DNA from: Circinella umbellata
Taxonomy: Eukaryota; Mucoromycota; Mucoromycetes; Mucorales; Lichtheimiaceae
Assembly (NCBI GenBank): GCA_025093555.1
Contig: JAIWNF010000009.1
Coordinates: 62,001 to 126,000, forward strand
DNA length: 64,000 bases
Direction of reading: 5' to 3'
Shown: one piece after another, positions 23,532 to 41,000 of the stretch
Numbering within the stretch: position 1 is the first letter of the stretch
Layout of the letters: every line of letters begins with the position of its first letter
Position numbers and translations under genes: made by a program
The notes under the pieces: generated by a model
Seen by the model: only the letters and a program-made list of their open reading frames with translations
The model's database searches: none
Told to the model about the DNA's origin: nothing

Positions 23532-26500
23532 ATGAATCAAGCATCGTCATCGTCACCTACGGGTAATATTATTAACTTTGATGCTCATGGAACAAAAGAG
23601 AAGTTTGAAGCTGTTATTCAGGTATAGATTACATATATCTGTATTGGTGATGTGTTTGTTTAAGAAAGCCTATTTAAATGAATAAGGAATAACGATCGTT
23701 ATTTTTTTTTATTTTTTCCCTCTAATAATAACGATCATTCAGAAAGCAAGACAGTTGGAAGCTGCTGGAGAAAAAGAAGATGGAAAGAATGAATACTCTC
23801 AGTTAATGACAGTGATTCGGTTATTTCAACAACAACAGCAACAGCAACAACAACAAATGAATCAACCACTGCCTACATCTACTCCTACTTCTATTCCTAG
23901 TCCACAACAACAAATAAATCCACAGCAAGCCATGATGCTTCAACAACAATTGGTACAAAAAATGACACCTGAACAACAGCAATTACAACTTCAAATGTTA
24001 CAACAACATTTATTACAACAACAACAAAATATCCCAGCAGGTAATAATAATAGCAACGAATAAGATAGAAAAGTCTTTAAACTAACCTATTTATAAAACG
24101 CGTTTTATACTTATAGGAACTCCTCCTCCTCCTCATATGATGAATCAATTACAGTATCAAATGTTAGCTTTTCAATTTTTACAAAAATCAATGGGTGCAC
24201 CCGCTCAAGATGAGCCTATTCCATCATTAGAAGAACAACGTAAACAACTGGGTGAAAAATTAATAGAAGCCATTTATCGTCAAGAACAAGATCATCGTAC
24301 ATTGAGTAAAGTCAAGTTTCCCAACAAACCTGTCAAAGAAAAACTTACATTTATGGATTTATTAACTGGCATTCAACGATCGCATGCTCACGCATCACGA
24401 CAACAACGTCTCCTGGTTCCTGAAGAACCTTTACCTCCCAATTTACCCTTTGTCGCCAAAACACCCAAAGGTCTTGCTCCACATATCATTTTAAAAAGTC
24501 GTGAAGAACGTATTCATCGACGCGCACAACAACGTCAAGAGGAATTAGAAAACAAACTTGTCAATGGCAAAAAATTGGGCCAGTTGATCAATGAAACAAC
24601 TTATCAAGAAATAATGAACGAGGCTACACCTGATCTGATGGATGATATCATTGAACTGAAATCATTACGATTACGTGATAAACAAATCAAAGTACGAGAA
24701 GAAGTGCTTCACGGTCAAGAAGAAGCAGCCAAATTATCTGCCACAGTGGATAAAGCAGCGTATCGTAAATTAATGAAACAATCGATTCGGGATGCCAAGA
24801 TTACTGAGAAATTGGAAAAACAACAACGATTGGATAAAGAAAAGCGAGAAAAACAACGTCATTTGGAATATTTGCAAACGATTTGTAATCACGGTCGGGA
24901 ATTGTTGATATGGCATAAAGCACAGCAAGCTAAGACGGTTAAGTTGGGTAAAGCTGTCTTACAATTTCATGCGCATATTGACCGGGAAGAACAACGAAGA
25001 GCAGATCGATTGTCAAAGGAACGTATTCGTGCATTGAAGGCAGATGATGAAGAGGCCTATATGAAATTAATTGATGAGGCCAAAGATACAAGATTGACTT
25101 TGTTATTAAAACAAACGGGTACTTATTTGGAATCACTTACTAAGGCTGTAGTGGATCAACAAAACGATCCTATTCACAATGAAGAAGAAGAAAAGGCAGA
25201 TGATTTATTGGATGGTGAAGAACCGGATGAAGAAACTATGTTAACGGTAAATTATATAAACTTGTTAAAGCAAAGGGAGGGGATGATGAAAAAGAAAAAA
25301 GATATTAATCTGAATCGTTCATGATAGGATTCTGCTGGAAATAAAATGGATTACTTTAGAATGGCCCATCGAATTCAAGAAAACGTATTTCAACCTGATA
25401 TTTTAAGTGGTGGTCAATTGAAAGATTATCAGGTGAAAGGTTTACAGTGGATGGTCTCACTTTACAATAACAAATTGAATGGTATCTTAGCTGATGAAAT
25501 GGGTTTGGGTAAAACAATTCAAACAATTAGTTTAATTACCTATTTGATTGAAAGAAAAAATCAAAATGGCCCCTTTTTAGTTATTGTACCACTATCGTGA
25601 GTGTTTATTTTTTCTTACAAAAAAAAAGTGAGCTAAGAGTTAAAAAACTAACGAATTACACTTTATTTAAATATAATAGTACAATTACCAATTGGGAATT
25701 AGAATTTGAAAAATGGGCACCTTCAGTCAAAAAGATTGTATATAAAGGCCCACCCGATGTTCGTAAAAGTATTCAACGTACACAAATTAAACATCGAGAT
25801 TTCCAAGTGATATTGACAACATTCGATTATATTATTAAAGACCGACCCACTTTATCTAAAATCAAATGGACTTATATGATTATTGATGAAGGTCATCGTA
25901 TGAAAAATACTCAATCCAAATTAACGTCTGTACTTCGACAATATTATGATGCAAGATATCGACTCATTTTAACCGGTACTCCTCTGCAGGTATTCAATTA
26001 TTATTTATTTTTCTTAGCATTGAATTGTTGTCGACTCCTTTTCCCCCTGAATACTAATTAAAAAAAAACTTTTTTTATGCAAATGTAATAGAATAATTTA
26101 CCTGAGTTATGGGCATTGTTAAACTTTATTTTACCACGTATCTTTAATAGTGTAAAAAGTTTTGAAGAATGGTTTAATACCCCTTTCTCAAATCAAGGTG
26201 TTCAAGATAGAGTGGAATTAAATGAAGAAGAACAATTGTTAATTATTAAAAGATTACATAAAGTAAGTTGATTTTTTGTGACGACTTTATTAAGACGAGT
26301 GTATTAATACCTAATTTTAATTTTAAAGGTCTTGAGACCATTCCTTTTGAGGCGACTTAAAAAAGATGTGGAATCAGAATTACCTGATAAAGTAGAACGA
26401 GTAGTTAAATGTAAATTATCAGCTTTACAATCAAGACTTTATTGGCAAATGAAGAAGCATGGTATATTATTTGCTGGTAAATCGGGTGGTAGTGGGTATG

Positions 26501-28007
26501 TATTATTTTATATATATATGCATGCATGCATGAATGAATGAATGAGATGGAAGGAGAGCTGATTAGGATAAAAAGAAATCATTTACTAATAATTTTTATA
26601 CAAACAAATATATAAATAGTCGAACAAGCATTAAAGGATTAAATAATACTATCATGCAACTTCGTAAGATATGTAACCATCCGTTCGTATTTGAAGAAGT
26701 AGAGAGAGTAGTTAATCCATACAAAATGAGTAATGATCTCTTATATCGAACATCTGGAAAGTTTGAATTATTGGATCGAATACTACCTAAATTACGAGCA
26801 ACGGGTCATCGCGTATTGATATTTTTTCAAATGACACAAATCATGGATATTATGGAAGACTTTTGTATATATCGTGGCTATAATCACCTTCGTTTAGATG
26901 GTTCAACAAAATCAGATGATCGTTCTCGATTATTACAAGTCTTTAATGCACCAGAATCCCCATATTTTGTATTCTTGTTGAGTACACGTGCAGGTGGCCT
27001 TGGATTGAATCTACAAACTGCTGATACAGTAATTATCTTTGATTCTGATTGGTATGTTCATTCTTTTTTTTTTTTATTTTTAGTAGTGAAGGAGCAGGAG
27101 TACCAGGGGATCTCATGACTTAAATTATTGAGGAGAATATAAAAAAAAAGAGAGAACGGATTTGTAGGAAGAGCTCTTTTTTTTTGTTCACTCGATAAAG
27201 AAAAGAGGGAATTGGTTAGAGGAGAAAGAAAAAACTTGAAATACGATGGAAAATAGTGTTATTTGTTTCTAACATAATAATAACTATTTATATTTTATTT
27301 AAAGGAATCCGCATCAAGATCTTCAAGCACAAGATCGTGCCCATCGTATTGGTCAAACTAAGGAGGTCAGGATATTTAGGTTGATTACTGAGAACTCCAT
27401 TGAAGAAAATATCTTGGCGCGAGCTCAATATAAACTAGATATTGATGGTAAAGTTATTCAAGCTGGTAAATTTGATCATCGAAGTACAGAAGAAGATCGA
27501 GAAGCCTTTTTACGATCCTTATTAGAAGACAAGAGTGATGAACACGATGATAATAACGAAGAGAATGAAGATTTGGATGATGAAGAATTGAATTTAATGT
27601 TAAAACGATCCGATCAAGAATATGCTACCTTTGGAAAAATGGATTTAGAACGACAACGTATTACGGCCGATGAATGGAAGCAACGGTATGGTGATAATCA
27701 TCCTCCTGATGCCAAACCAGAACGTCTTATGCAAGATTGGGAATTACCAGAAGTTTATCAATATGACCAAAATGAATTAGATCGAGTCATGGGAGCACAA
27801 GAAGAAGATGATCAAGTATTGGGACGTGGTCAAAGAACGCGTGAACATGTACAATATGATGATGGAATGACAGAAGGACAATGGTTACGTAAACTAGAGA
27901 AAGAGACCTCTGGTTCTTCTACTCATGGAAAGCGGGGCATGTCTCCAGACAATAGTACATCACCACCACTATCAAGCAAAAAATCGAAAAAGCTCCGCAT
28001 GTATTAG
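23532..28007 (+). CDS. SWI/SNF-RSC type chromatin remodelling ATPase (SNF2/STH1/Brahma family), without bromodomain
   Basis: There are nine exons: 23532-23621, 23743-24040, 24117-25246, 25328-25596, 25680-25989, 26092-26262, 26329-26495, 26620-27051 and 27305-28007, giving 1189 aa. It uses ATP to slide or eject nucleosomes. After poly-Gln regions comes a QLQ-like segment ([18 protein letters not shown]), then an HSA/post-HSA region ([13 protein letters not shown] onward) that binds actin-related proteins. The helicase core has Walker A DEMGLGKT (K568), DEGH (665-668), [27 protein letters not shown] and [12 protein letters not shown] SnAC domain follows ([20 protein letters not shown]). The chain ends ...[11 protein letters not shown] without the C-terminal bromodomain usual in Snf2 and Sth1, and no exon for one is visible before the next gene. 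Confidence 0.93.
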
Positions 28008-28404
28008 AATAGGTTACATCAATAAAAATAATAATAATAAGCGTTTTCAAATGGTATGTTTAATTAGTATTTATACATTCTAAATCAGAGAGTGAGTGTG
28101 AGTGATGACACATTCCGGGGCATATCTGTGTTAAGGGTGCACATACCATATGATTACTCTTTCCTGCTTTTTTTTTATTCTTCACCTTTTCTTTTCTCTT
28201 TTCTCCTTTCTCCTTTTTTTTATTACTCTTGTAACCCTTATCCACTCTTTTTTTTTTCCTTTTCCTTTCCCTTTCCCTTTCCCTTCCTTTATTTCTTGTT
28301 TATAAAGAAGAAGAAGAAAAAAAAAAGACCATCCTAACACCAGTTCATTCTATTTCCCATTGTCCTCAATATACCTTTTTTTTTTTGATTGAAACTAAAA
28401 AAAA
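28008..28404 (+). promoter_or_regulatory. Intergenic region with strong pyrimidine tract
   Basis: This holds the 3' UTR of the SNF2-type gene, then a T/C-rich run (about 28165-28310, with CCCTTT repeats) 100-240 bases before ATG 28405. It is probably the promoter/leader of the next gene. Confidence 0.4.
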
Positions 28405-29145
28405 ATGGCATGTAATACCTATCAAAGCACCCATTTTTATTATAAAAATAATAATGAAAATTCATGTGATCGTATTGGTGATGATAGTGTGCTAACTGAT
28501 TCAACAGCATGGCCAAGTAGTTATTATGGACGAACCAAAAGAATTGATTTAGCTAAAGTCTATAGTGATACTTTATTAAGAATAAATCAGGAACAAGAAC
28601 AAGAACGAAAATCTCATCAACGAAATAACAAAAAAGGCAGACGTCAAGTTAGTTTTACGACAGCTCCACCTATTATTCATGAATATGAAAGAGAAGATAT
28701 CCATGACTATTGTCGTGATCGAAAAAGATATGATGATGCTGGTCATTTAAGAATACAAACGTTGGATCTTCGTCCTATACCTAATAATTGTTATAATAAA
28801 CAACAACGCCATCATCGTCATCAACGTAGTGTCTCATCACCACCTACATCTCCTCTTGTATCGCCTAATTATTCTTTAGCATCTCCTATTTCTTCTTCTT
28901 CTTCTTCTTCAAGTCCCACAAAATCATTATCAGCTTCTATAATTAACAAAACATCAATGTCAACAACTAGTATTGATAATACTACTAAAAAACCATCAAA
29001 AAAATCGCGGGTCGATTATGATAAACAAACTTTTACTGATGGAGAAGATAATAATATATCATTATTATTATTAAAACAACCTATTCGAACACGTTCTTTT
29101 AATTTTAGCACTTTTATAAATTTCAAGTCATTTAAAATGAAATAA
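28405..29145 (+). CDS. Unknown protein with RVxF-like (RQVSF) segment
   Basis: This is a single exon of 246 aa. The start ATG is preceded by AAAAA, a favourable fungal context. The protein is mostly low-complexity and basic. The one ordered-looking segment, around residues 78-95, reads RRQVSFTTAPPIIHEYE. [RK]-x-V-x-F followed shortly by an acidic/aromatic patch is the type of short linear motif that docks protein phosphatase 1, and a similar V-x-F...HEY pattern recurs in fungal regulatory proteins. A Ser-rich stretch and SPPTSPLVSP offer many proline-directed phosphorylation sites. PP1 binding is inference; no enzymatic domain is present. Confidence 0.6.
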   Translation: MACNTYQSTHFYYKNNNENSCDRIGDDSVLTDSTAWPSSYYGRTKRIDLAKVYSDTLLRINQEQEQERKSHQRNNKKGRRQVSFTTAPPIIHEYEREDIHDYCRDRKRYDDAGHLRIQTLDLRPIPNNCYNKQQRHHRHQRSVSSPPTSPLVSPNYSLASPISSSSSSSSPTKSLSASIINKTSMSTTSIDNTTKKPSKKSRVDYDKQTFTDGEDNNISLLLLKQPIRTRSFNFSTFINFKSFKMK

Positions 29146-29419
29146 ATAAAAAGAAAAACTTTATTTTTGAATTGTCAAATACGTTTTACTATGTAAGTAT
29201 TCTCGTGAGTTTTCCATATTTAGTAATCTATGCACCATAATTGGTTGCTTGTATTGATTGTACAATCTTAAAACTCTTTTCTCACTTTCCCCCTATTTTC
29301 TTCTCTCTTGTCCTTTTTATTCCTTTTTTTTTGTCATCTATTATTCTTATTATAATTACTTTGTTTTATTTGTTTATATACCCCCCCTCTTAATTATTTC
29401 TTAAAACAAGAACAAAATA

Positions 29420-31102
29420 ATGGCTACTTCACCAAGATTATTGACTAAATTTACAAATATCTTTGCTCGTAAAGATGATCCTACCCATAGTAGTGGTAGT
29501 AGCAGTGATGAAGAAATGGATCAGGTAGGAGGAGACGAAGATACTTTACGTGATTCTATGTTTTCTTCTGTTTCATCTGTTCGTAACCAGAATCCAAATA
29601 CTCCTCCACCTCTTCGAACCATTCAAATCGATCAAACATTTTCAGAAAAAGATAAACAAGCTGTAGATGAAGCCTTTGATCAACTTATGAAAGAATATGC
29701 TTTATCTTCCACTATTCGTCCTAATTTGACGCAATTAACAACTCATCAAAAATCACTCATGTTGGTGCAATCCTCAAAAAAGAAAATCATTCAACAACAA
29801 AACAATAACAACAACAATAATAATAATAATACCACATCAACCAAAAGAAGGCTCAGTCTTGCTATTAATAGTAATAACAACAATAACAATAACAACCCAT
29901 TTAATATCAATATTAGTAACTTGAGTGGTATGGCAACAAATGGTCGATCCTCTAATATATTATCATTTAAAGCATCCAACTATACAAGAAGAAAAAGTGT
30001 TCGAGATGTCTTTTCAACGGATAATCCAGAATATTATTGTCGAGCCCTCCGATCACCTACACCCACGGATGATGATCTTGTACACTTAAAAATACATTTA
30101 CGAAGCAGTGTTGTTAGCTGGACAGATGAATTCCTGGCCTTGGGAGGATTTGAAGCTCTTACATTTGCTCTTGGTGTATGTAAAGAAGATATTAAAAAAC
30201 AAAGTGATAAAAAAATTGAATTGTTATGTCGATGTTTCAAGACGATCATGTCCCCTGAAAGCAAGGCTGTAGAAAAAGTATTGACGAATACAGAAGCATT
30301 AGAACATGTTCGTGACATCATGTTCGGTCCCTCCGACATAAAAGTTAAGGCTCTTTATTTATTGGATGTTCAAACAAGACAACAATTATTAGAAGTATTA
30401 TGTACATTACCAAGTATACAAGTAACAACAGAATCTGGCGATTACATTCATGGTTATGACGTATTGCGTCAATTGTTACGTGATAAGGTTGAGGATATAG
30501 TGGATGATAAACCTAAAAGACATACTCTTGTTTTTCCTACATCATTCAAGGCAGATACAGAAACAATGATGAAAAAGATTTCGAATGGTGAAACGACACG
30601 ACCTCGTTATACAGCTTGGATGCGTGAATTACAGTTAATCGTGGATCGACATATTGAGCCCATGACGTATCTTTCTCAAGTCTTGGATTATAATTTTGAA
30701 AGTGCGTATCGTCAACTTAGAGTCAATCAACATCAACAATATGAAGAAGAGGGTAGCAGTCCATCACCCGATAATAATGAAGAAACAAGACAAGTGGTGA
30801 TGGTGGATGAAGGTGTAGTGGATTATCTTATTACAAATTTACGATTGATTTGTACCTTGGTGACCAAACCCGCTACCAATTTCACTGGTGATTATGACAA
30901 GTATGAACAAGAAAAAATGCGGATGGAAATCATGTTATCTGGATTTAAAAAAATTACCCAAGCTCTTTCCATATGCCCTCATCCAACTCTTCATGCTTCT
31001 TATATTCGATATCTTCAACCTCTTTTACAGCCCTGGGCTGATCTTTTTGAGTTTGATCTTATGGATGATGATGATGAAATGTGGGAAGATATTGTAAATT
31101 AA
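29420..31102 (+). CDS. Formin-type GBD/FH3 protein without FH1-FH2
   Basis: This is a single exon of 560 aa. The N-terminus is disordered with poly-Asn runs (~residues 128-160). From about residue 195 it has the armadillo-like GTPase-binding/FH3 fold of diaphanous formins: NPEYYCRALRSPTPTDDDLVHLKIHLR, then SWTDEFLALGGFEALTFAL and a run of helical repeats to the end. In formins this module binds Rho GTPases and the autoinhibitory tail. Here the actin-assembling FH1 and FH2 domains are missing, and the next gene lies on the other strand, so it is not an annotation break. It may act as a Rho effector or regulator of other formins. ELMO/MMS19-like ARM proteins are a less likely alternative. Confidence 0.75.
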   Translation: MATSPRLLTKFTNIFARKDDPTHSSGSSSDEEMDQVGGDEDTLRDSMFSSVSSVRNQNPNTPPPLRTIQIDQTFSEKDKQAVDEAFDQLMKEYALSSTIRPNLTQLTTHQKSLMLVQSSKKKIIQQQNNNNNNNNNNTTSTKRRLSLAINSNNNNNNNNPFNINISNLSGMATNGRSSNILSFKASNYTRRKSVRDVFSTDNPEYYCRALRSPTPTDDDLVHLKIHLRSSVVSWTDEFLALGGFEALTFALGVCKEDIKKQSDKKIELLCRCFKTIMSPESKAVEKVLTNTEALEHVRDIMFGPSDIKVKALYLLDVQTRQQLLEVLCTLPSIQVTTESGDYIHGYDVLRQLLRDKVEDIVDDKPKRHTLVFPTSFKADTETMMKKISNGETTRPRYTAWMRELQLIVDRHIEPMTYLSQVLDYNFESAYRQLRVNQHQQYEEEGSSPSPDNNEETRQVVMVDEGVVDYLITNLRLICTLVTKPATNFTGDYDKYEQEKMRMEIMLSGFKKITQALSICPHPTLHASYIRYLQPLLQPWADLFEFDLMDDDDEMWEDIVN

Positions 31103-36393: not shown

Positions 36394-36875
36394 ATGATTC
36401 TTCGACCACAGTATACACAACGTCCAATTGAAGTTTTGGTAATCAATCATTTCTTTTTTTTACACATTGCAACATCTATTTTCTTGGAATATTAATAGAA
36501 TCCATAAAGCTTGTAGGACCAGCTAATAGTGGTAAACGAACAATAGCAGATCAACTTATTTCATGTCGTGACACTTTTATATCCATGTAAATAAACTATA
36601 TATACATTATGCTTCAATGAACAACTATATATTTATTACTGAATGTTATACATATCTTATGCAGTTCTACCAATGAAGAATTACCAAAAAATGCTTTTGA
36701 AGTTCTAGGTCATGTTGATTTTATTTTTTTTGTTCTCGACATGACCAATAAAGAAAGTCTGGTGGTTTTCGAAAAAGCCTTAGAACACACTGCACCTGAA
36801 TATTTAGTAAATCGTTGTGCTGTTCTAATCACCAAAAGTAAGTTGCATTTTTCTCAAAAGCTATTTATTTTTAGC

Positions 36876-36913
<38 letters not shown>

Positions 36914-37444
36914 TACATCCTTTTCTTTTTAAGTTGATAGATTACAAAAGTCGCTGATTGTTGAAAGTAGAGTACAATTTATTATTGATCGTTATACCCC
37001 TGATATGCAGTTGTTCCGGTGTAATCTAACCGTAAGTAACTTCGTTTTATGGTTGAATCTGTAAAAAAAAACAATAATAACGGATATATTTATTGTTAGG
37101 ATAATCAAGAACGACGAAAGTTATGTGACCAAATGACTCGACTTGTTCGCATCAATCAATTACAACAAAAAGATATCACAATGTCCTTAATTAAATCAGT
37201 TGTTTATTATAATCATTTTCCATATTCATTTCGTCAACCCGAAGATTCTGAACAGACACCCACGTATCAAACAGATAATAGTGAGATACTATCTCCAACG
37301 CTAGGTCAAGATAACGATAACAACAGTGATAATGATGATTTCAATGAGGGTGGTCATGTCAATGAAGACGACCTCAAAGAAGTTGAACAAATCAGCGAGA
37401 ACAAAATTCAAGGAGATGAACATGTTACTGAAGATGATGACTAA
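36394..37444 (+). CDS. CENP-M-like small GTPase-fold protein (kinetochore CCAN)
   Basis: There are five exons: 36394-36438, 36510-36586, 36665-36837, 36934-37031 and 37100-37444, giving 245 aa. Human CENP-M is a pseudo-GTPase that holds the CENP-H/I/K part of the inner kinetochore. Here the order of segments matches that family: MILRPQYTQRPIEVLLVG at the start, IADQLIS, VDFIFFVLDMTNKESL, NRCAVLITKID, then YTPDMQLFRCNL and MTRLVRINQL. Unlike the vertebrate protein, nucleotide-binding traces remain: GPANSGKRT resembles a P-loop (Arg where Ser/Thr is expected) and TKID resembles the guanine motif NKxD. An acidic Asp/Glu/Asn tail (~residues 175-245) is extra. Intron 3 contains an (AAT)n run. A diverged Ras-like GTPase is the alternative. 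Confidence 0.7.
36877..36913. repeat. (AAT)n microsatellite in intron 3 of the CENP-M-like gene
   Basis: About twelve tandem TAA triplets, entirely intronic. Confidence 0.9.
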
Positions 37445-37863
37445 CAAGAAAATCATGATAATAATAATAAAGATGTCAATATGGATGAAAAGTTATTTAT
37501 TGAAAATAATATTTCATGAAAAAACATGATGTTTAAAATAAACTAATATATATATAAATATTAAAGACCAATTAAGAAATCAAGGAATATTAAGCATGTT
37601 TTTGTGTGTATGTGTGAAAGTGTAGAAATTAAAAAAAAAATAGAGAGAGATAAAATACAAAAAGAAATTGCAAAAAAAAAGGAAAGGAAAGGGTTATATT
37701 TATATGTAAAAATTGTGTACTTGTTTATACCTACGTTATTATTGTAATAAAAGAGAATATATGGGTGGGGTAGATGGATGGATGTGTGTGAATCTTTTAT
37801 TTTATATCGGTATCATCATTTATAAAATGCAAAAGAAAAAAAAATATAATTAATAGATAGAGT
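37445..37863. other. Convergent 3' spacer
   Basis: The 3' UTRs of the CENP-M-like gene and the RasGEF gene. A-rich with GAGA-like runs; nothing else is seen. Confidence 0.5.
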
Positions 37864-38000: not shown

Positions 38001-41000
38001 CTATACAATAAATAGGCTTACCTAGGTTCCAATTTCAAACTTTCATTATATAACTGCTCCTCGTCCCGCGTGCTTTGCAGATTAGCTTGAATAAATGACT
38101 GAAGTTCCTCAACAGGTTTCAGGCGGTATAATGATGATTGGTATTGCTGAATCTCGCGAATAACCTCGGCAGTTTTGGCACGTTTAGCAAAATTAATCAA
38201 TTCTTTGGATTTTTTTAAATAGTTGGGATTACCATCTTCTATAAAAGTAAGATCTTGCAAGTAGATACCCAAAAACGGTATACATGGAGGATTAATCGAA
38301 TGAATGATGGCTCGATATTCGGTAAAGTTACGATTCGCTCCCATCAATTTACGAATTTGTGATAATATCTGGTTGGTTCGTGCACCCACCATTTCCCATG
38401 TTCGTTTTAAACGACCCACAGAACTATTATCAAAGGCCGATAACACAGCCATACATGTATTAAAGTTGTTCAATAATCGGCATTTCTACAATTGACAAAA
38501 AGAAAATAACAGCAATATGAGCACTTTCTTCTTATCATACATACACCTACATACACAGATTGTAAAATGTGAAAATGACTAACCTCAGCTACTTGAACCC
38601 AATATTTAATAACATTACTGCGTTTTTTGATATCACTTTGACTCAAAATAGCATCAGAAACCCATGATGTCACTTCATTACAATATTCAATGGAGGCACG
38701 AATGTTGACTGCCACATTACCCGCTTCATCGTTTGAATCCTTTGACCAAGCTTTATCCAAACATTCGACAGGACGAATCGAACTATATAGATTAAAATCC
38801 ATAATCGTCAATTGACGTGCCATCTCCAGCGTATCAATATCCATCAACTTGAATTTTTTACGATTGCGTGGCATAATAGGCTCAGGTGGATCTGGTAACG
38901 TTAACACCATTTTCTTCAACCCCCCTTGACTTTCATCTTCCTTACGCATCTTGATCAATCGTTCTAGTTGGTCAGCAGAAAAGCTTAATGTGGATCGGAT
39001 ACTTGTGTTGGTAAATTCTTGTAATCGATCCAGAATAATATAATCATCCTCGTTATAATACAGTTCCAGCCAGTTTTTGAGGACATTAAAAACACGTAAA
39101 CGGACCAACTTGAGCTTCTTTTGTGTCCAGGTTTCAGTTTCTTCTTCTGTCATACCCTCTGGGGGTTTTAAATTATAACGTGCTTCCAATAAATCCAAAA
39201 GTTCAATAGATGTACAAAATGATCGATAGGTCAACAAGAATGTGTTGATAAAATTCATATCGAGATAATCATGCAGCGTTAATCGCTCGACTAATCCACG
39301 TAACGTTCCTCCTTTAACATAGCCTTCCATGTTGAACACGATTTCGTTAGCATCATAGTCATATTCTAAGAACCATGGCCGTTCGTTGACAGCTGGTTTG
39401 GCAGCAGCCGCAACAGCAGCTGGTGCATCGTCACCGAAGAATTTTTTAAGTTTACTATTCGTGTTCTTGGTTGGTGAGCTTGGTGTATTTCCACCACTAC
39501 TAACGGTCGACGAATGCTGTGGTAAGCTACTATCACCTCCAGGTGTGGTATTTGTGGAGGAATCAGCTTGTAAAGTTGCTGTAGCTGATTCAGTTAAGGT
39601 TGCGGGTGTAGTTGTTGATAATTTTCTTGTTTGTTGTTGTTTATGTTGCTCATCATCTGATAGCAGTTCAGAAGGCACAGTGCCTTCATGTGTTCCGTTA
39701 TCATCAGTACTAAATCCTCCTTCGACCGCATCATTTTCATCCTCATCTTCTTCGTTAATGGCGGTTTCCATCAATGCTGTTGGATTGGGTGTTGAATTTC
39801 CTCCTATCGCTTTGACTGGTACAGGTTCTTTAGTAGGTGGCATATTCATTTGTCGCTCATGCACCAGTTTACCAACGCATGCACAGATATTTTGGATAGA
39901 TAAACTGACACCAGCAGCAGCACGTTCCACGTCACGCACCATATTTTTGAGAGGCACAGTTTCATCCGTCATACATTGCATCCAGCAAAATAATAAACCC
40001 AATCCATCTGATAATTGTTGTCGATCGGCTTTAAGTTCCAACATTATAGGAGATGTATCCACACCATTAAAGTCAATATCCTCAACGATACCGATGAATT
40101 GACCAGTTTGGTTGGCCAAATTACGGAATTGGGTAAACATCACTGCAGCCAGTGAAAATCTTGAACTATCTTGTCCATCATCACGACGAATACTTGAAAG
40201 CATCGCATCAATGGATTCTTGCATACTTGTTCCATACGCTTCCAAATTATCTGCCAAGTCGCCTTGCAGTGCATATTTCGCTCTCTGCTGCTGCTTATTC
40301 AATTCGCCGGATTTCTCTTCACCACCAGCATTATTCCTATCTTGATTATTTCTATCAAATGTATTATTCTCTTCTCCCGTGGTGATTAAATTTGGGTCCA
40401 TATGCTGGACAATGACCGGGATATCTTGACATGTTTGAACAAAATTTCGAACGGCTAATAATAGTTCACTTGAATCTGAAAGCATTTTTCCAATGTTATC
40501 TTCGGAACTATCCGCACTTAATTGAGAAGATAAGACGAGTTTGGACATAGATGCCATCATGGCGCGATGATGGGCTCGAAGTACCGAATTGGTCTTAATA
40601 TAAACAGATTCCTTATCAATGGTACCGGATGTTACTAACATCATCCGAATGGCATTCACAATAGCTGCTGCATAAGGCAGAAACATGTTTTTTTGTGCAT
40701 TTTTGGCTGCCGCATTAAGGTTATGAATAGATAATGCAATATGAGCTGATAATTTGTTCCAAGTCAATGGTTCATTACTATCTACAATTGATGTACGACG
40801 AACAGAGGCTTGGCGAGATGGTGAACGTGGTAATGGTTTTGGTGGTGGTGGTGGTTGAGATGGTGTCGAAGTGGATTTAAATGGAAAATCGTCAGGTAAA
40901 GGTGGTCGCCAAGATGGATCATCTATTTCTTGTGCTGTAGTTACTTTTTCTTTCTATTATTTTTTTTATAATAATACCATTTTTTCTTAGTACAACACTC

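Follow-up and report, generated by a model that had tools for sequence, protein, structure and literature searches.

A likely CENP-M ortholog of Circinella umbellata that keeps P-loop and TKxD residues while switch I is deleted

In which order does a GTPase decay into a pure scaffold? This is an open question that fungal CENP-M addresses, and it is raised by a gene at 36394..37444 (+ strand) in 64,000 nucleotides of DNA from Circinella umbellata (Mucorales, Lichtheimiaceae). The whole stretch, referred to here as the window, is part of contig C200 (952,497 bases) in an assembly of 50.8 Mb and 210 contigs. Five exons with four GT-AG introns of 71, 78, 96, and 68 nucleotides join into one frame of 245 amino acids, the length that an earlier sequence-only reading had given to the protein. 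We hold with high confidence that this gene encodes the CENP-M ortholog of C. umbellata, likely a rigid Ras-like scaffold subunit. The identification is built on the gene structure, the family membership, the predicted fold of an ortholog, the single CENP-M copy found in the genome, and the matches to CENP-I, CENP-K, CENP-L, CENP-T, and Ndc80.

The window protein matched the Pfam family CENP-M (PF11111) at 6.3e-12 and 45.6 bits against a gathering cut-off of 25, and the next family, Gtr1_RagA (0.038), stayed below its cut-off. The proteins P0001-P0005 and P0015 reached 41.5-66.1 bits on PF11111. Among solved structures, human CENP-M came first both in a search with the single sequence, weakly (E 0.0058), and in a search with the fungal profile (1.3e-9), where mitochondrial Era was next at 1.3e-4. 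The alignment of the fungal with the amniote profile covered 164 columns at 97.3% probability and started at the shared N-terminal LRP. The fold predicted for an ortholog is Ras-like with five strands, its tail having a low predicted local distance difference test (pLDDT) score, and the solved CENP-M was the closest in the fold comparison. The sequence-only reading had called the protein CENP-M-like, and in the Pfam, PDB-sequence, and fold comparisons alike CENP-M indeed matched best, ordinary GTPase families being weaker in the profile searches.

The kinetochore partners were sought in the same genome with profiles of CENP-C, H, I, K, L, N, T, and Ndc80, exon by exon at E <= 1. CENP-I (PF07778) was matched at 5.7e-13 on C127 and CENP-T at 52.1 bits on C13, and there were matches to CENP-K, CENP-L, and Ndc80. 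CENP-C gave no match, which in an exon-wise search does not show absence.

Several aspects weigh against the identification. The fold model is that of an ortholog (80% identity within residues 1-130) and not of the spliced window protein itself, and sequence identity with amniote CENP-M reaches only some 20-25%. In NCBIfam, P0001 matches GTPase Era at 2.5e-7 and 30.3 bits (cut-off 237); the best NCBIfam matches, which are GTPase Era for P0001 and P0015 and ClpX for P0005, are all far below the cut-offs. Human L94, which takes part in CENP-I binding, aligns to V, T, or Y in the seven fungal rows (V89 in the window protein), and human L163 aligns to S, P, A, or L in the five rows reaching that place (S160 in the window protein). 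A shift of one residue would put the L163 place on a neighbouring conserved Leu, the alignment there being uncertain by one residue. The double mutation of L94 and L163 breaks CENP-I binding in the human protein (PMC4080450; this and the other PMC papers are cited here for parts of their text). The CENP-T family was also above its cut-off at three histone-like loci (C112, C136, and C154; 31.8-31.9 bits), and the CENP-T call is therefore taken from the C13 match alone. Of the inner-kinetochore subunits for which the sequence-only reading had proposed a search, CENP-I, CENP-K, and CENP-L were recovered; CENP-H and CENP-N, both reported for Mucor, had no match at E <= 1 by exon, a result that does not show absence, as no control genome matched either.

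The same genome was also searched for CENP-A-like proteins with canonical histone H3 as the query (E <= 1), no CENP-A query being made; four canonical H3 loci and a decayed copy were found, and no CENP-A-like protein. C154 and C112 carry full-length H3 (93% identical), C176 is 94% identical over H3 residues 1-107 with a short second piece, and the locus on C124 is split by an intron. Loop 1 is of normal length in all four, and all read as canonical. A weak fifth match on C101 (E 0.097) led to a frame of 106 amino acids at L022 1486-1803 (G000:C101), which had no Pfam match at E <= 0.01. The frame is H3-derived, as its local score of 79 was reached by none of 2000 shuffles. At the DNA level it scored 32-48 against the H3 genes; with C124 it shares 69 of 102 columns, a score that none of 200 shuffles reached. 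It was dropped as a CENP-A candidate because loop 1 is not lengthened and the DNA resembles the H3 genes; judged by its sequence, it is probably a relic, a decayed copy of H3.

The features of the CENP-M gene are as follows (secondary structure from ortholog models).

36394..36438, + strand: exon 1, residues 1-15, with the LRP motif at residues 3-5, common to most amniote CENP-M rows
36510..36586, + strand: exon 2, residues 16-41 (codon 41 is shared with exon 3), covering the end of strand 1, the P-loop, and helix 1
36516..36542, + strand: P-loop-like G1 motif GPANSGKRT, residues 18-26, with Arg25 at the Ser/Thr place
36665..36837, + strand: exon 3, residues 41-99 with codons split at both ends; it carries the PF11111 match
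36681..36683, + strand: Leu47, equivalent of human CENP-M Leu52 and Ras Gln61 (equivalence from PMC4080450)
36831..36837, + strand: first part of the G4 motif TKID (T97, K98, and the first base of I99)
36934..37031, + strand: exon 4, residues 99-131; 36934-36938 completes TKID (I99, D100)
37100..37444, + strand: exon 5, residues 132-245 and the TAA stop, encoding the last helices followed by an acidic tail of low complexity
37110..37136, + strand: alternative exon 5 of the public record P0002, read in another frame, with 8 residues before the stop

TKID (residues 97-100) is thus interrupted by intron 3, and this intron also holds a run of AAT repeats at 36877-36918. The public C. umbellata protein P0002 is the same gene, identical letter for letter, and its intron-4 acceptor at 37110 leaves only 139 amino acids. 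The ending at acceptor 37100 with 245 amino acids is better supported, because four orthologs (P0001, P0003, P0004, and P0015, from Phascolomyces, Zychaea, Fennellomyces, and Rhizomucor) continue colinearly past intron 4 and through the exon 5 helices. The record of Dichotomocladium stops early, at 143 amino acids. The finding flags P0002 as a truncated public gene model. Beyond the TAA stop, the same frame at 37442-37520 still resembles the acidic tail of the metagenome protein P0006 (a DVNMDE stretch), and hence close relatives seem to differ in how long the tail is.

What is left of the nucleotide site was read from an alignment of the window protein with 120 of 121 returned homologs (among the matches listed, best 120 of 384), P0006 being left out as a C-terminal piece only. 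Seven rows are fungal, from six species, as the window protein and P0002 are one gene; of the 114 others, every named one is an amniote. G18, S22, G23, K24, R25, T26, K98, and D100 are identical in all seven fungal rows. Of the other 114 rows, 84 keep G18. Leu occupies the Lys24 place in 95 of them, and Gly occupies that of Lys98 in 112 and that of Asp100 in 106; 14-15 rows are gapped in the P-loop. The GPANSGKRT and TKID motifs, noticed already from the letters alone, do remain in the window protein, and five of their canonical residues (G18, G23, K24, K98, and D100) stand in 7/7 fungal rows. The G4 pattern [N/T]KxD is present as TKID, its first residue being T in six of the seven rows and S in one (SKVD in Rhizomucor). 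The description of G1 as P-loop-like is right for G18, G23, and K24; it passed over the Arg25 that stands at the Mg2+-binding Ser/Thr place in every fungal row. The pattern GxxxxGK[S/T] is therefore incomplete, and T26 does not occupy the canonical Ser/Thr place.

Is this conservation more than chance? The six fungal species agree at 35 of the 130 core columns, and these 35 include every one of the five canonical G1/G4 residues (hypergeometric P 0.0011). The value becomes 0.005 if T97, which is Ser in Rhizomucor, counts as a sixth place, and 0.015 when the Ser/Thr place taken by Arg is also counted as a failure. The conservation thus exceeds chance, modestly by the statistics. The six P-loop-bearing fungal records give weak scores on P-loop and GTPase families, Fennellomyces reaching 26.7 bits on GTP_EFTU (cut-off 26.5), and the 3/3 amniote CENP-Ms scanned score on CENP-M only, one domain of unknown function aside.

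The switching parts have gone further. From K16 to Q61, Ras has 45 residues. Since K24 to L47 is only 23 residues in the window protein, against 24 in human CENP-M (L28 to L52), the switch I segment, and with it the Thr of G2, is gone: the alpha1-beta2 loop and beta2 are deleted as in human CENP-M. The G3 motif DxxG is missing, the places of D57 and G60 being T43 and E46 when counted back from L47, and no SAK-like G5 was evident in the window protein by eye. The place of Ras Gln61 is Leu in six of the seven fungal rows and Met in Rhizomucor, and Leu52 of human CENP-M is described as invariant in the family (PMC4080450). With Ser/Thr replaced by Arg, switch I deleted, and DxxG gone, the sequence makes an ordinary switch that hydrolyses with Mg2+ very unlikely, and the protein would be at most a nucleotide holder.

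Somewhat more likely than not, the P-loop block has been retained purely for a structural turn or a contact with CENP-I, without a ligand. Arg25 equals the glycines and Lys24 in conservation (7/7), which fits a salt bridge or a partner contact, and human CENP-M functions free of nucleotide (PMC4080450). However, K98 and D100 of G4, distant in sequence, are also kept, and a local turn leaves them unexplained.

A further reading, which extends the CENP-M identity and is not an alternative to it, is that the fungal protein may bind guanine or another nucleotide without Mg2+-dependent hydrolysis, as a locked, ligand-stabilised scaffold; we regard it as unlikely. The eight residues identical in all fungal rows, the over-conservation of the five canonical ones, and the weak P-loop and GTPase scores, not seen in the amniote CENP-Ms scanned, speak for it. 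TKxD is a working form of G4 in Rho GTPases, and P-loops of the form GK-x-T occur in adenylate kinases. On the other side stand the Arg at the Ser/Thr place, the deleted switch I with T43 and E46 at the DxxG places, the lack of an evident SAK-like G5, the SKVD of Rhizomucor, and the P value that weakens to 0.005-0.015 once the changed places are counted; the conservation may also be structural. Under the class scheme of pseudoGTPases, the fungal protein would then belong to class (ii) and the human one to class (i) (PMC5593906), and the retained residues make this a testable possibility. The corresponding proposal for the family, that CENP-M of the Lichtheimiaceae, whose order has reportedly lost CENP-A and CENP-C, is a nucleotide-binding, non-hydrolysing inner-kinetochore scaffold (for guanosine triphosphate, guanosine diphosphate, or another nucleotide) in which switching was lost before nucleotide binding, is rather doubtful. 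Finally, an ordinary small GTPase of the Ras, Rab, Arf, or Era type merely resembling CENP-M is highly improbable and was set aside, as its Ras-like fold, its P-loop and TKxD traces, and its weak matches to Era, GTP_EFTU, and Rab33 are outweighed by CENP-M as the best match in all three comparisons, by the missing switch I and DxxG, and by the N-terminal LRP shared with most amniote rows.

Returning to the gene as encoding CENP-M, its product would act as a rigid Ras-like scaffold that binds the C-terminal part of CENP-I and stabilises the CENP-H/I/K/M complex. It would thereby support the recruitment of CENP-T and Ndc80 in a CENP-T-centred kinetochore without CENP-A and CENP-C, and the P-loop and TKxD residues would be an ancestral remnant under constraint in the Lichtheimiaceae. 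CENP-I binding and scaffold function are most likely by analogy with human CENP-M (PMC4080450; PMC6326798). The latter binds CENP-I beyond residue 281, stabilises HIKM, is required for the recruitment of CENP-T/W and Ndc80, and works without nucleotide (PMC4080450); the CENP-I C-terminus is described as the CENP-M contact (PMC6326798).

The sequence-only reading had taken a subunit of the constitutive centromere-associated network (CCAN) in Mucorales as news. Mucor circinelloides CENP-M is already listed, together with CENP-H, I, K, L, N, O, P, and T/W/S/X (PMC7729030 and PMC9252888, citing Navarro-Mendoza 2019). Distant CENP-Ms that retain a P-loop have likewise been noted, and the motif explained as an evolutionary remnant (PMC4080450). 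PMC9252888 lists the Mucor protein yet calls CENP-M lost in fungi. PMC4080450 places CENP-M in metazoans and reports none from fungal genomes, while another of its passages speaks of loss in most fungi and its tree contains a Clavispora entry. The new sequences speak against the claim, in one review and the 2014 CENP-M paper, of fungi without CENP-M. Neither CENP-M nor Mucor is mentioned in the main text of PMC5579357 as far as available, nor CENP-M in the available text of PMC9089191, and no paper on the G-motifs of fungal CENP-M was found in the literature searched. The point added here is that, by alignment, a single fungal family retains residues of both G1 and G4 although its switch I has already been lost. 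Fungal and amniote rows have the switch I deletion in common, and the P-loop Lys and TKxD are found only in the fungal rows; this suggests that, in the decay from GTPase to scaffold, switching disappeared first and the nucleotide site later. The idea of an intermediate between a GTPase and the vertebrate pseudo-GTPase, raised from the letters alone, is supported in the sense of this pattern.

Around the gene, the next one downstream (38473-40953, - strand) is a Ras exchange factor (RasGEF_N, RasGEF), which implies no link with CENP-M. Upstream (24086-31099, + strand) comes a likely Snf2-type chromatin remodeller with HSA and SnAC domains, followed by a formin-like gene (Drf_GBD).

Among known systems, Rnd proteins are not known to have switch I deleted. 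As class (ii) pseudoGTPases they are a model of nucleotide binding without hydrolysis, unlike the fungal protein in belonging to another family and in having most of their changes around switch II (PMC5593906). Certain distant members grouped with CENP-M resemble the fungal protein in keeping a P-loop, which in them is canonical (PMC4080450). Mucor circinelloides CENP-M comes from the same order and from a reported CCAN context without CENP-A and CENP-C (PMC7729030; PMC9252888); Mucor, Rhizopus, and Phycomyces orthologs were not among the matches listed (4, 6, and best 120 of 384). Human CENP-M (PDB 4P0T, 4WAU, 7XHO; PMC4080450) shares the Pfam family, the five-stranded Ras-like fold, the alpha1-beta2/switch I deletion, the Leu at the Ras Gln61 place, and the N-terminal LRP. 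In contrast, it is without the P-loop Gly and Lys and has TGAG where the fungus has TKID, whereas four of the six fungal species have a C-terminal extension (the Dichotomocladium record is short and Rhizomucor is without it) and all fungal rows keep G-x4-GK-R-T and T/S-K-x-D.
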